From: Planomicrobium okeanokoites
GTDB lineage: Bacteria > Bacillota > Bacilli > Bacillales_A > Planococcaceae
Direction: 5' to 3'
Assembly: GCF_003428875.1 (NCBI RefSeq)
Contig: NZ_QQRS01000001.1
Span: 496,001-560,000, forward strand
Length of the DNA: 64,000 nucleotides
The translations under genes were made by a program, and so were the position numbers. Shown piece after piece: positions 2,171 to 51,636 of this stretch. Under the pieces are notes generated by a model. The model was not told the DNA's origin, ran no database searches, and saw only the letters and a program-made list of their open reading frames with translations. How positions within the stretch are numbered: the stretch's first letter is position 1; each line of letters starts with the position of its first letter.

Positions 2171-3412
2171 ATGTTATCAAAACAGAAAAAAGAACAAGTT
2201 TCCAAACAGATCAAGCGCTATTTTGCAGTCGGGGTGATTGCTTCAGCTGGCATGCTGTCGTTGAATGCACTGGCTGCCTCAGCCGATGAACATTCTCCAG
2301 CTGCTGAAGAAAATGCAACTGACACAACTGTAGCGGAAGAACCCGCACTGGTGCCGGGTGACTTCTTTTATTTCCTGAAGCAATTGCAGGAAACGGTCCA
2401 ATTGGCTTTCACGTTTGACCAAGCTGCGGAAGCGGAATTATTTGCTGAGTATGCAGAGCAGCGCATTCTGGAAGCGGAAGCTTTGATGGCTGCCGGCGAT
2501 GAGGAATTGGCAGTCCAAACGCTGGAGAAAGCATTGGCGCTGTATGAAGAAGGCTTGGACCAACTGGTGGATGGCGAAGAAGATGAAACGGAAGAGCCGC
2601 CTGCTGACGAACCGGACGGAGAAGAACTTCCAGCTGAAGAGGCTGAAGAAGAACCTGTCGATATGGGTTCGGAAACGGATGACGATTTGACGGAAGAAGA
2701 TGCGCGTGCTGCATTGGAAGCCAAGTTCAGTTCCAGCCTGCTGGCGCTGCAAGCAGCGATGGAGAAAGTGACGAATCCGCAGGCAAAGGAATCGCTGGCT
2801 AAAAATGTCGCCAAAGCGATGGAGCGTCTGGAGAATAAAATTGAAAAAGAGCTTGCCAAGTTAAATGAATCGGATGAAGAAATAGAAACAGAAGAGGAAT
2901 CGGATGCTCTTGCTGAAGAAAGCGCTGCAGATGAAACAGCTGAAAATGCAGATAGCCCTGAAGACCAACCAGAAGAGTCCGAGGAATCCGAAGATGCTGA
3001 TGAAGAATTAGATACTGAAGATGAAACAGTATCCACTCCTTCTGCAGACGAAGATTCTGAGCCTGAAGAAGAACGGTCCGAAGAAGAAAAAATCGCCGCC
3101 AAAGCTGAGAAAGCTGAAGAAAAAGCTGCGGCTGAGGAGCAACGTGATGCTGTGAAAGCTTCGGCTGAAGCAAAACGCGAAGCTGAGAAAGCTGCGGCTG
3201 AAGCAAAACGTGAAGCTGAGAAGGCTGTGGCTGAGGAAAAACGTGAAGCTGAGAAGGCTGCTGCAGAGGAAAAACGCAAAGCTGAGAAGGCTGCGGCTGA
3301 GGAAAAACGCGAAGCTGAGAAGGCTGCGGCTGAGGAAAAACGTGAAGCTGAGAAATCGGCTAAGAAAGAAAAAGAAAAGCAGGAAAAACCTGGCGAGAAA
3401 TCTAAACCTTAA
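2171..3412 (+). CDS. secreted DUF5667-type protein with acidic linker and 11-residue repeats
   Basis: A 413-aa exported protein. A positively charged N-terminus and hydrophobic core (about residues 20-36) form a signal peptide ending near ALAASADE. A DUF5667-like domain follows (about residues 60-130: PGDFFYFLKQLQE...AEYAEQRILEAEALM). Next come a very acidic low-complexity stretch, a second short helical segment and a C-terminal array of hendecad-like KREAEKAAAEE units. No LPXTG or lipobox is present, so it is probably released or wall-associated through charge. It is the only gene downstream of the c-di-GMP riboswitch and is followed by a terminator, so second-messenger control is likely. 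Its biochemical role is unknown; a matrix or surface role is a guess from the regulation. Confidence 0.85.
   Translation: MLSKQKKEQVSKQIKRYFAVGVIASAGMLSLNALAASADEHSPAAEENATDTTVAEEPALVPGDFFYFLKQLQETVQLAFTFDQAAEAELFAEYAEQRILEAEALMAAGDEELAVQTLEKALALYEEGLDQLVDGEEDETEEPPADEPDGEELPAEEAEEEPVDMGSETDDDLTEEDARAALEAKFSSSLLALQAAMEKVTNPQAKESLAKNVAKAMERLENKIEKELAKLNESDEEIETEEESDALAEESAADETAENADSPEDQPEESEESEDADEELDTEDETVSTPSADEDSEPEEERSEEEKIAAKAEKAEEKAAAEEQRDAVKASAEAKREAEKAAAEAKREAEKAVAEEKREAEKAAAEEKRKAEKAAAEEKREAEKAAAEEKREAEKSAKKEKEKQEKPGEKSKP
3164..3361 (+). repeat. six tandem 33-bp units encoding an 11-residue repeat
   Basis: Six in-frame 33-bp units encode A-E-(A/E)-K-R-(E/K)-A-E-K-(A/S)-(A/V). Spacing is exact and divergence is low. 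The period and the alternating E/K composition suggest a long single alpha helix or coiled coil. Copy number is likely to vary between strains. Confidence 0.85.
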
Positions 3413-3425
3413 AACAATAATAATC

Positions 3426-10358: not shown

Positions 10359-10570
10359 ACCGATGTTTCGCAAAACAGCTTCCCTTGCCGGGGACTCGCG
10401 CTGAACTTATTTCCCAAGTCATCTTCGCTGTTGTGATCTACACCACTAGAGAAAATTCTAGCGAAGGCGCGCTCCAGGACTGGGCGGAACAATAAGACGA
10501 GTGATCTTCTCGGCTTATTGTGTGAGCCTTGTCCAAAGCGCCGAAGCGGTATGGAAAGAATATCTCTTAT
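10359..10570 (+). repeat. degenerate family 1 intergenic repeat, solitary copy
   Basis: It begins CCGATGTTTCGCAAAACAGC, which matches the family 1 left end, and finishes with a right end similar to the ATGGAnnnAATATCTC version. The middle has diverged. It fills most of the 354-bp gap between the 78-aa gene and ykpA; nothing coding is convincing there. Confidence 0.5.
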
Positions 10571-12286: not shown

Positions 12287-12328
12287 TAAAAAATCCCGCC
12301 ACACTTTGAAAGTGTGGCGGGATTTTTA
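12287..12328. terminator. ykpA terminator, left copy of a duplicated terminator
   Basis: AAATCCCGCCACACTTT pairs with AAGTGTGGCGGGATTT, with A- and T-tracts on both sides, so it can work in either direction. The hairpin at 12659-12700 shares AATCCCGCC and GTGTGGCGGGATTTT. Confidence 0.9.
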
Positions 12329-12346
12329 TTCTTGTTAAACAAAATA

Positions 12347-12524
12347 ACCGATATTGCGCAAAACCGCTTCGCTTTCCTGGGGGCTTGCACTGAGCTAACT
12401 CGGACTCGGTCCCCTTCGTCCGAGTGGATCTCAGCACTTCGCACGAAACGGAGTTGAAAAGCCAACTCCGTTTCTAATCCCCTGGGAGTCTCGCTGGTTT
12501 GCTCCATATCTCAGAATTGCTTTC
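12347..12524 (+). repeat. family 1 intergenic repeat (locus 1)
   Basis: A non-coding repeat. Its left end is CCGATATTGCGCAAAACCGC and its right end GCTCCATATCTCAG. Internal palindromes include CGGAGTTG/CAACTCCG and CTCGGAC/GTCCGAG. Other copies lie at 41899-42040 (inverted) and 50983-51230, with more diverged ones at 22243-22389 (inverted) and 10359-10570. Confidence 0.8.
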
Positions 12525-12630
12525 TACAAAGAATACGTTTATTCATGTCTCGAATCCAGCGGTCCGATGCAGAGACAGTAGCATCGTTTTCGCAAGCTAT
12601 CGAGGAGGCTCACGCAGCAGTGAAATGATT
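12524..12630 (+). repeat. family 2 intergenic repeat, truncated (locus 1)
   Basis: It starts CTACAAAG. It shares TTCATGTCTCGAA...GATGCAGAGA with locus 3 and GCTATCGAGGAGGCTCA...GCAGTGAAATGATT with the inverse of locus 2 (41681-41830). It has the same order and orientation relative to family 1 as in the other loci. Confidence 0.65.
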
Positions 12631-12658
12631 TAAAAAGCTAATTTTTCTCGACGAGCTG

Positions 12659-12700
12659 AAAATCCCGCCATACACTCCGAAGGAATGTGTGGCGGGATTT
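12659..12700. terminator. ykvA terminator, right copy of a duplicated terminator
   Basis: CCCGCCATACACTCC pairs with GGAATGTGTGGCGGG, with T-tracts on both strands. It serves the convergent gene 12708-13184. Confidence 0.9.
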
Positions 12701-12707
12701 TCATATA

Positions 12708-21985: not shown

Positions 21986-22242
21986 CACAATCGACCGCCT
22001 TTTGGCTCTTCTTACTTCATCATGACAAAATTAACGACACCCTGCAACGCAGAACTCCCGTAAGCCTAAATTTACCAAAGCCCGGACAGGAAATTGTTAA
22101 GGTTTAAGTAACAGTGAGTTTATCTATCAAATTCTAAAACATAACATGAAGATGAATGAAGTATATTGTTGCTAAATGAAAACTAAGAATTTTTATAAAT
22201 AATCTTTCTTATAAATTAATATCGCTTGAGAAAACCTCTGAA

Positions 22243-22389
22243 GATATGGAGCAAAACAGCGAAGACAAATCCTTGTCAGAGCGAAACTTTAAGAACCGTG
22301 CTCCTGCATCGCTTCGCTGCTTCGTCGCAAAGACTTAGCCTCGCTAGCTTCGGCTAATGTCTTCGAAGCTGTATTGCGGAATATCGATT
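22243..22389 (-). repeat. family 1 intergenic repeat, solitary inverted copy
   Basis: It reads GATATGGAGCAAAACAGC at the left and GAAGCTGTATTGCGGAATAT at the right, the inverse of the family ends. Inside it shares CCGTGCTCCTGCATCGCT and GCTTCGTCGCAAAGA with the 50983 copy. The rest of the 478-bp gap (21986-22242) shows nothing I can name. Confidence 0.7.
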
Positions 22390-41632: not shown

Positions 41633-41662
41633 CAAAAAAACCGCTATAAATATAACGGTTTT
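41633..41662. terminator. duplicated terminator copy in the thyA leader
   Basis: AAAAAAACCGCTATAAATAT, then AACGGTTTTAC. It differs from 42069-42098 at one position of 30. The stem has one C/A mismatch. It lies 32 nt upstream of the thyA start codon. Confidence 0.75.
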
Positions 41663-41680
41663 ACCAGGCTGTCGAAAAAC

Positions 41681-41830
41681 ATCATCTACTGCAATCATTT
41701 CGCTGCAGGCGGACGCGTTCCGCAGGGAGCTGCCTGAGCCTCCTCGATAGCTTACGCTATCTGCGGGGTCTCAGGACTCGCTCTGTTTCCTGCAGGAGTC
41801 GCCGCCTGCTGCTGCATTTTATATCTGTAG
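41681..41830 (-). repeat. family 2 intergenic repeat (locus 2)
   Basis: A GC-rich palindromic element: GCAGGCGGACGC near the left, CCTGAGCCTCCTCGATAGC in the middle, CGGGGTCTCAGGACTCGC, then GCAGGAGTCGCCGCCTGC at the right. The inverted outer parts can fold on each other. It looks like a short intergenic repeat seen in other Bacillales genomes. Confidence 0.8.
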
Positions 41831-41898
41831 AAATATGTGAGTATCTTCTCAGTAAATAAATTTATTTAACCTATCTCTTTATGGAATGAGATACTAAG

Positions 41899-42040
41899 AT
41901 ATGGAGCAAAACAGCGAGACTCCCAAGGGAGCAGGCGAATGCCGACGAAGTGCTGAGATCCACTCGGGCGAAGGGGACCGAGACCGAGTTAGCTCAGCGG
42001 AAGCTCAAGGAAAGCGAAGCTGTTATGCGCAATATCGATT
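41899..42040 (-). repeat. family 1 intergenic repeat (locus 2, inverted)
   Basis: The inverse of the locus 1 copy. Left end GATATGGAGCAAAACAGC, right end GCGCAATATCGAT. It shares GTGCTGAGATCCACTCGG and GACCGAGTTAGCTCAG with copies at 12347 and 50983. Translations of it in several frames are spurious. Confidence 0.85.
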
Positions 42041-42068
42041 ACTTATCTTTATCTTTTCTCAACAAGTT

Positions 42069-42098
42069 AAAAAAACCGTTATAAATATAACGGTTTTA
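42069..42098. terminator. ypjP terminator, second copy of the duplicated hairpin
   Basis: CCGTTATA pairs perfectly with TATAACGG, with A7 and TTTT flanks. It overlaps the ypjP stop. Confidence 0.85.
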
Positions 42099-42689
42099 CG
42101 AGAGCCATTTTGGCGGAGTATTTTTGGACCAATAGATATCGCCCAATGTGATGTGCTGCTGGAAATCATCTTCCTCCAAATGGTAATGGAAGTTGAAATA
42201 ATATCCTTCCTGCGGCTTCTTCTCTGTGCGGACGTGGAAACGGATCTTATCTTTATTCGTTTCCGTATCATAGATATGGAAAATCTTTTCGGAATGTTCA
42301 CCGGAAGGCTTCTGAGAAATCGCCAGCCTGCGCAAGCTTTCCGAATCAACCTGAGCAAGATGCAAGTCGATCGCCTGCTGGATGTTCGGCAGAATAGCTG
42401 TCTTGAATTCATCTTCGATAACCGGACCGATGCGGGAGCCGAATTTCATATAGGCTTGCTCTTCGGCAGTCTGATGGACAGTATCCAGAATCGTCGGGTT
42501 GGTGTAATAGAATTCCGATGGGTCCAGCCAGTCATATGTATTTTGAGTATTCGGACTTTTTTGCGCATGGGTTTTGAGTTCCGGCTTGTCATCGAGCAAA
42601 GATTCCCAAATCGTATGGTTTGGAGGAATCGTGCCGAGGCTAAGGACAGCTACTGCAATCACCAGCGATTTTTGCCACCAATTTTTCAT
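42096..42689 (-). CDS. ypjP: YpjP family protein
   Basis: A 197-aa protein with an N-terminal signal or anchor (KSLVIAVAVLSLGTI), then an extracytoplasmic domain with DWLDPSEFYYTNPTILDTVHQTAEEQAYMKFGSRIGPVI and a WLS end. It corresponds to YpjP, found beside thyB/dfrA in B. subtilis; function unknown. ATG at 42689 has AAGGTG six nt upstream; an earlier in-frame ATG lacks one. Confidence 0.88.
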   Translation of the reverse strand: MKNWWQKSLVIAVAVLSLGTIPPNHTIWESLLDDKPELKTHAQKSPNTQNTYDWLDPSEFYYTNPTILDTVHQTAEEQAYMKFGSRIGPVIEDEFKTAILPNIQQAIDLHLAQVDSESLRRLAISQKPSGEHSEKIFHIYDTETNKDKIRFHVRTEKKPQEGYYFNFHYHLEEDDFQQHITLGDIYWSKNTPPKWLS

Positions 42690-50923: not shown

Positions 50924-50954
50924 AAAAAGCGCGCAGACGTTCTCTTAGCTTTTA
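50924..50954. repeat. decayed terminator copy (left, locus 3)
   Basis: AAAAAGCGCGCAGACGTTCT matches the working terminator at 51605-51636 except for one C/G change; the 3' arm TTAGC no longer pairs. Confidence 0.65.
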
Positions 50955-50982
50955 TAGCGTGTCGGGAAAGAAAGCTGGGAAA

Positions 50983-51230
50983 CCGATATTCCGCAAAACA
51001 GCTACGCTTTCCTGGGGGCTTGCAAAAACCCGTGCTCCTGCATCGCTACGCTAGCTTCGTCGCAAAGAGCCGGCCTTGCAAGCTACGGCCAACTCTTAGC
51101 TAACTCGGTCTCGTTACACTTCGCCCGAGTGGATCTCAGCACTTCACTCGTAACGGAGTTGTAAGCCAACTCCGTTACTGCTCCCCTGGGAGTCTTCGCT
51201 ATTTTGCTCCATATCTTAGAAATGCTTTCA
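50983..51230 (+). repeat. family 1 intergenic repeat (locus 3, long form)
   Basis: Ends match the 12347 copy. It also carries an inserted block (CCGTGCTCCTGCATCGCT...AGCTACGGCCAACTC) shared in part with the 22243 copy. The hairpin AACGGAGTTG/CAACTCCGTT is intact. Confidence 0.85.
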
Positions 51231-51290
51231 ATTAAGTAGCAATATATAAAATTAAATTAGTAATGAGAAAGCCGACAAATAGATTCTGCT

Positions 51291-51570
51291 CTACATTAAA
51301 ATATAGCGGCAGGCGGCGAAGAGCAAAGACTTGTCCTCACAAGCTTCGGCATTCTCTTTCCAGCTGGATTCAATGCAAGGCCTGAGACCCCACAGGAAAG
51401 GTTTGATCGAACAGCATTCGAACGAACCTTTCCGACGAAACGCCGAGCACTGCAACGGTTTTTCATGTCTCGAAGTTAAGGCAGCGATGCAGAGAAATGA
51501 GCACTGGGTTTTCGTAGCGAATGAGGAGCATTTGGCATTTCCCAGTTGGACGCGCATGCCTTGTGCGCAA
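51291..51570 (+). repeat. diverged family 2 intergenic repeat (locus 3)
   Basis: Starts CTACATTAAAATATAGCGG, then GCAGGCGGCGA and CCTGAGACCCC as in the inverse of locus 2, and shares TTCATGTCTCGAA...GATGCAGAGA with locus 1. Inverted segments AAAGGTTTG/CGAACCTTT and GCAAATGCT-like pairs can fold. ORFs on both strands here overlap each other and look spurious. Confidence 0.65.
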
Positions 51571-51604
51571 TAACTGAAGAATTCTACAATTTTTCTACAA
51601 TCTG

Positions 51605-51636
51605 AAAAAGCGCGGAGACGTTCTCCGCGCTTTTTT
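51605..51636. terminator. terminator of 51648-51848, right copy (locus 3)
   Basis: AAAGCGCGGAG pairs with CTCCGCGCTTT around ACGTT. Confidence 0.88.

Follow-up and report, generated by a model that had tools for sequence, protein, structure and literature searches.

The 405-bp sequence interposed between ypjP and thyA of Planomicrobium okeanokoites is in all likelihood a MITE of an IS1182-family IS of Planococcus, which a transposase acting in trans would have inserted at a hairpin with duplication of the whole stem-loop. This small transposase-less element is widespread in Planococcus bacteria. It has the features of a MITE: it is short, lacks a transposase gene, occurs in many copies and has precise empty sites in relatives (L059, L061 and L309). 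It occupies the second of three similarly built loci in the 64,000-nucleotide stretch of contig NZ_QQRS01000001.1 that was analysed (here called the window; Table 1).

At locus 2, ypjP (PF14005) and thyA (PF00303) are both encoded on the minus strand, in a genome of the Planococcus type. Given that the two genes are co-directional, the duplicated hairpin was assigned to ypjP as its terminator. The two 30-bp terminator copies are identical at 29 of 30 positions in an in-register alignment, and folding yields a hairpin for both. The initial annotation had noticed two hairpins differing at one base around a family 2 and a family 1 repeat; the duplication was confirmed, and the coordinates given for the first copy were off by one base. 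A scan of the locus 2 element against Rfam 15 gave no match at gathering thresholds, and a permissive scan gave nothing convincing. A known Rfam RNA family was rejected as the identity of the element because no curated family matches. Elsewhere, the window contains a c-di-GMP-I riboswitch at 2013-2095 (Rfam RF01051, 70.2 bits) and, within an ORF, a tandem array of a 33-bp unit at 3086-3420.

Table 1. Features of the three loci and the IS1182-type IS of the same genome (window positions unless a contig is given).
Feature	Position	Strand	Remarks
Locus 1, architecture like locus 2	12288-12702	-	terminator copies about 12288-12328 and 12659-12702; element about 12329-12658
Locus 2, terminator copy A, thyA side (left target-site duplication), AAAAAACCGCTATAAATATAACGGTTTTAC	41635-41664	-	hairpin fold; present once in L059 and L061
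Locus 2, IS1182-type MITE, 405 bp, composite of families 1 and 2	41665-42069	+	end motifs match autonomous IS; not present in L059 or L061
Family-1-side terminal sequence CAGGCTGTCGAAAAA	41665-41679	+	one mismatch to consensus CAGGCTGTCGAGAAA
Family 1, GC-rich imperfect palindrome	41690-41822	+	
Family 2, second imperfect palindrome	41898-42045	+	genomic copy number at least 40, mostly without flanking duplication
Family-2-side terminal sequence TTTCTCAACAAGTTA	42055-42069	+	reverse complement TAACTTGTTGAGAAA; two mismatches to consensus CAGCTTGTTGAGAAA
Locus 2, terminator copy B, ypjP end (right target-site duplication), AAAAAACCGTTATAAATATAACGGTTTTAC	42070-42099	-	hairpin fold
Locus 3, degraded larger copy	50924-51636	-	terminator copies about 50924-50954 and 51605-51636
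L031, IS1182-type IS of the GGCCACTGAAAAA-like-end group	G000:C21, about 124-126 kb		

Relatives at locus 2 were located with the ypjP protein and belong to Planococcus and Planomicrobium. In Planococcus sp. MER TA 32b (L059) and CAU13 (L061), a single GTAAAACCGTTATATTTATAACGGTTTTTTT lies between ypjP and thyA, whereas the window holds this terminator twice with the element in between. At locus 1, the element is missing from G029 (L309), where a single terminator is present; G010 (L308) carries an element between two terminator copies. One long-loop and one short-loop terminator copy are present at locus 1, and these swap sides between the window and G010, the orientation of the element being unchanged. 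For locus 3, which is decayed and less clear than loci 1 and 2, one such terminator was found in each of G010 and G029. That the element comes with a terminator of its own on either side and can insert at any site, the hairpins being a conserved repeat, would explain why terminators stand at both ends; this is barely conceivable, however, as the hairpin differs from locus to locus and pre-exists in the empty site. A different element in opposite orientation was found at the locus 2 terminator, again between two copies, in P. halotolerans (L057) and Planomicrobium sp. Y74 (L058). The L057 element can be aligned with that of the window only in patches (75-94%), as compared with 89-91% similarity in the neighbouring genes. 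We read it as a probable independent insertion, the alternative being an inversion between palindromic copies.

For 40 family 2 copies of the P. okeanokoites genome, brought into a common orientation, the two outer flanks were aligned with each other; the statistics rest on these 40 and not on every genomic copy. The flanking hairpins were alike in 12 copies (scores 36-81), and the remaining 28 scored 12-22. When the flank of one copy was aligned with that of another, the highest score was 31, so the duplication is not due to chance. At least one recognizable end was kept in 11 of the 12 duplicated copies as compared with 5 of the 28 others (Fisher p = 2e-5), and duplication thus belongs to copies which keep their terminal sequences and not to family 2 as such. 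A genome-wide excess of flanking duplications had been named as a check in the initial annotation, and their lack at other copies as a refutation; the 12 pairs exceeding every swapped-flank control speak for the former and against the latter. The annotated order of terminator, family 1, family 2 and terminator is borne out at all three loci of the window, and the composite is not limited to these three sites. At locus 1 (L024) the flank alignment scored 41 against a swapped-flank maximum of 22. The decayed terminator copies of locus 3 agree at 26 of 30 positions; this locus was negative in the automated flank test only because its larger element places the terminators beyond the flank windows, and it was judged by eye. 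Most family 2 copies stand alone and have no flanking duplication in the automated test, for example that at window position 22241-22389; comparison of this copy with relatives revealed a partial deletion in G010 and no clear empty site. Solo family 2 copies at L017 and L021 have another GC-rich repeat (CGCTTCGGCGCTTAGGACAAAGC...) beside them, and a similar stretch occurs at window position 10400-10560.

In the genus, CAGGCTGTCGAGAAA was present in 34 and CAGCTTGTTGAGAAA in 16 of 46 genomes searched; reversed-pattern controls gave zero matches apart from a single hit for CAGCTTGTTGAGAAA, confined to one genome. Across a wider sample of the family the end motifs occurred in only two other genera, one of them at control level. 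Elements were then chosen by their ends alone, comprising 24 with both motifs facing inward and 16 found by one end (40 in total). The two-ended elements measure 137-1532 bp, or 137-687 bp without the IS copies. Direct repeats abut 22 of the 24 at a distance of 0-2 bp with scores of 47-72, as compared with a maximum of 26 in 552 swapped pairs, and 12 of the 16 one-end elements abut a duplicated hairpin (control maximum 28). Taken together, 34 of the 40 end-defined elements adjoin a duplicated hairpin with scores of 41-72, the best swapped-flank control reaching 28; among the six below threshold, L287 and L293 resemble interrupted or decayed duplications. Near-identical elements are found at unrelated terminators (L278/L279, 96%; L277/L280, 98%). 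The close abutment argues against a reading without transposition, in which the pairs would be the separate terminators of two convergent genes or products of gene conversion or homologous recombination. Two terminators are frequent between convergent genes, but ypjP and thyA are co-directional and relatives possess a single terminator and no element, which contradicts this very improbable explanation. It is also improbable that family 1 and family 2 are separate mobile repeats which met at terminators by chance. Family 2 does occur alone and without duplication at many places; against this, most of the 24 two-ended elements hold both families within the same ends, and the autonomous IS copy L290 matches neither family model yet shows a comparable terminator duplication. 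It is the 15-bp ends, and not families 1 and 2, that define the mobile unit; the two families are its usual cargo.

DDE transposons normally leave target-site duplications that are short and vary little in length, and typical MITEs leave short ones of a fixed length, whereas hairpins of 27-40 bp are duplicated here. The mean length of the repeats in the 34 elements is 32.9 bp. The centre of the repeat deviates from the dyad of the hairpin by at most 0.5 bp in 28 of the 34 and by at most 1.5 bp in all of them, and in 19 both repeat edges lie within 1 nt of the hairpin foot. Target hairpins share no common sequence across elements and are alike only within a locus. The centring on the dyad, together with the variable length, suggests that the extent of the duplication is determined by the hairpin and not by a fixed stagger. 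The foot of the hairpin is not a strict rule, given that the correlation between duplication length and measured stem length is only weak (r = 0.29) and that about one stem in three runs 2-7 nt past the duplicated segment. The main rival explanation invokes a symmetric transposase dimer which binds the palindrome as duplex DNA and cuts with a long stagger, no hairpin being extruded. Centring on the dyad would be equally expected of such binding, and stems reaching past the duplicated segment agree with it; the fixed geometry of a dimer should, however, produce a near-constant length, and the range of 27-40 bp at targets without shared sequence makes this explanation rather unlikely.

A search for DUF772 transposases across the 46 genus genomes led to the IS copies L032, L033 and L034. 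In L032, CAGGCTGTCGAGAAA precedes the transposase gene, the other end is CAGAGTGTTGAGAAA, and an exact 36-bp terminator repeat is present on both sides. L033 has the ends CAGCTTGTTGAGAAA and CAGGCTGTCGAGAAA and an exact 33-bp terminator repeat, both motifs being present in L033/L290. These autonomous copies (L032 and L033/L290), which reside in sister species, are thus flanked by exact terminator duplications of 32-36 bp. The transposase is split into ORFs of 190 and 255 amino acids around the slippery heptamer A AAA AAG in L032; the heptamer is also present in L033 and L034, and its conservation between the ORFs suggests that the transposase may be produced by programmed -1 frameshifting. The predicted -1 fusion of L032 scored 457 bits against the IS1182 model NF033551 (cut-off 270), and there were hits to PF05598 and PF13751. 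The partner's transposase, the shared ends and the palindromic targets all agree with assignment of the element, as a MITE derivative, to the IS1182 family. L032 and L034 carry a family 1-like repeat within the IS, in the segment that separates the IS end from the transposase gene, and family 1 may therefore belong to the end region of the IS. The initial annotation had proposed a non-autonomous element that targets intrinsic terminators, or a recombination mechanism that duplicates them, to be checked through empty sites in sister strains and a transposase or reverse transcriptase with matching ends. Support for a non-autonomous element that both targets and duplicates terminators comes from the single-terminator sites lacking the element at loci 1 and 2 and from the IS1182-type gene of the sister species.

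No matching transposase was found in the 27-contig assembly of the P. okeanokoites genome, which contains only another IS1182 subgroup, and past movement in this genome presumably used a transposase that is now absent from the assembly. The sole DUF772 transposase of this genome, L031, was rejected as partner on account of its different ends (GGCACTGAAAAACT), and the GGGGCTGTCCCA group of IS copies was likewise rejected because its ends differ. In G025, several 54-amino-acid transposase tails that are 91% identical to L032 are located at contig ends (L152, L161, L167, L173 and L177), suggesting that more IS copies are hidden in assembly breaks.

From what can be read directly in the sequences, namely element boundaries, empty sites, a matching autonomous IS and hairpin-length duplications centred on the dyad, the following course of transposition is proposed: (i) a transposase supplied in trans would bind the two unequal ends, CAGGCTGTCGAGAAA and CAGCTTGTTGAGAAA; (ii) insertion would take place at a DNA hairpin, usually an intrinsic terminator, which the transposase would recognize in extruded or single-stranded form and cleave at its feet; (iii) strand transfer would occur near both feet, one per strand; (iv) gap repair would copy the whole stem-loop, turning one terminator into two with the element in between; (v) the upstream gene would retain a terminator, and either copy would be open to renewed targeting. 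Three terminator copies around two interposed segments were observed at L007 and L032, a pattern as repeated targeting would give.

In more general terms, we consider it reasonably probable that a DDE transposase reads the hairpin as its target and attaches the element at both hairpin feet, the secondary structure of the target thereby setting the length of the duplication, and that sister groups within one IS family differ in their point of attack (feet, loop or replacement), which leads to three outcomes. Variable duplications of whole hairpins, empty sites and many replicates make such structure-guided target choice directly testable. The arrangement also suggests that the element could spread through intergenic space at little harm, since the gene upstream would keep its terminator and the element would be insulated on both sides. 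The duplication would moreover regenerate a target for further insertion.

The ISfinder entries of some IS1182 members include long direct repeats, and an undiscussed precedent may exist there. In the literature searched, which did not extend to ISfinder, no published MITE or IS that duplicates whole terminators was found. The remark of the initial annotation that no element of exactly this architecture had been described agrees with this as regards whole-terminator duplication, although a related habit is described for IS1182/IS1272. IS1272 and TnSha1, members of the IS1182 family from Staphylococcus, are described as inserting at hairpins, among them terminators; the target is partly deleted or replaced, and no target duplication is made (PMC4923244, PMC5678879). 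For palindrome-targeting IS1182 members, PMC5678879 refers to a review and gives no details. The Planococcus elements resemble IS1272 and TnSha1 in their IS1182-family DDE transposase and in hairpin targets, often terminators, that lack a sequence consensus. Unlike IS1272 and TnSha1, where the target hairpin is deleted or replaced, they keep and duplicate the whole hairpin; stem-loop replacement of the IS1272 type does not apply to them, as both hairpin copies are present in 22 of the 24 two-ended elements. IS1272 and TnSha1 are also autonomous or gene-carrying, whereas the Planococcus element is mostly a MITE. With MITEs in general (PMC10969869; MITEAba12, PMC6382973) it shares short length, non-autonomy, ends in common with an IS and many copies. 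ISs inserted in REP palindromes (PMC1525189) likewise have palindromic extragenic targets, but REP targets constitute one repeated sequence family, while the Planococcus targets share structure and not sequence.

A further comparison is offered by an IS1182-type group of the same genus with GGCCACTGAAAAA-like ends (L031, L037, L038 and L045). On inspection by eye, these ISs sit in hairpins of which the 7-10-bp loop alone appears to be duplicated (CGCAAAG in L031, GAATTCCA in L037, CGCTAAG in L038 and CTAAAATTAG in L045), the stem arms being split around the IS. This group shares the transposase family and the hairpin targets, and its loop-only outcome resembles pathway c of the 2017 model (PMC5678879). 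Pathway b of that model (Fig. 13) has the stem-loops attacked at their 5' feet, with duplication of the entire stem-loop as the result. Variable length, dyad symmetry and the lack of a common target sequence make our data fit this pathway. It predicts the structure found in Planococcus, and it is presented in the available part of PMC5678879 as an alternative to IS1272 replacement, with no example given there.
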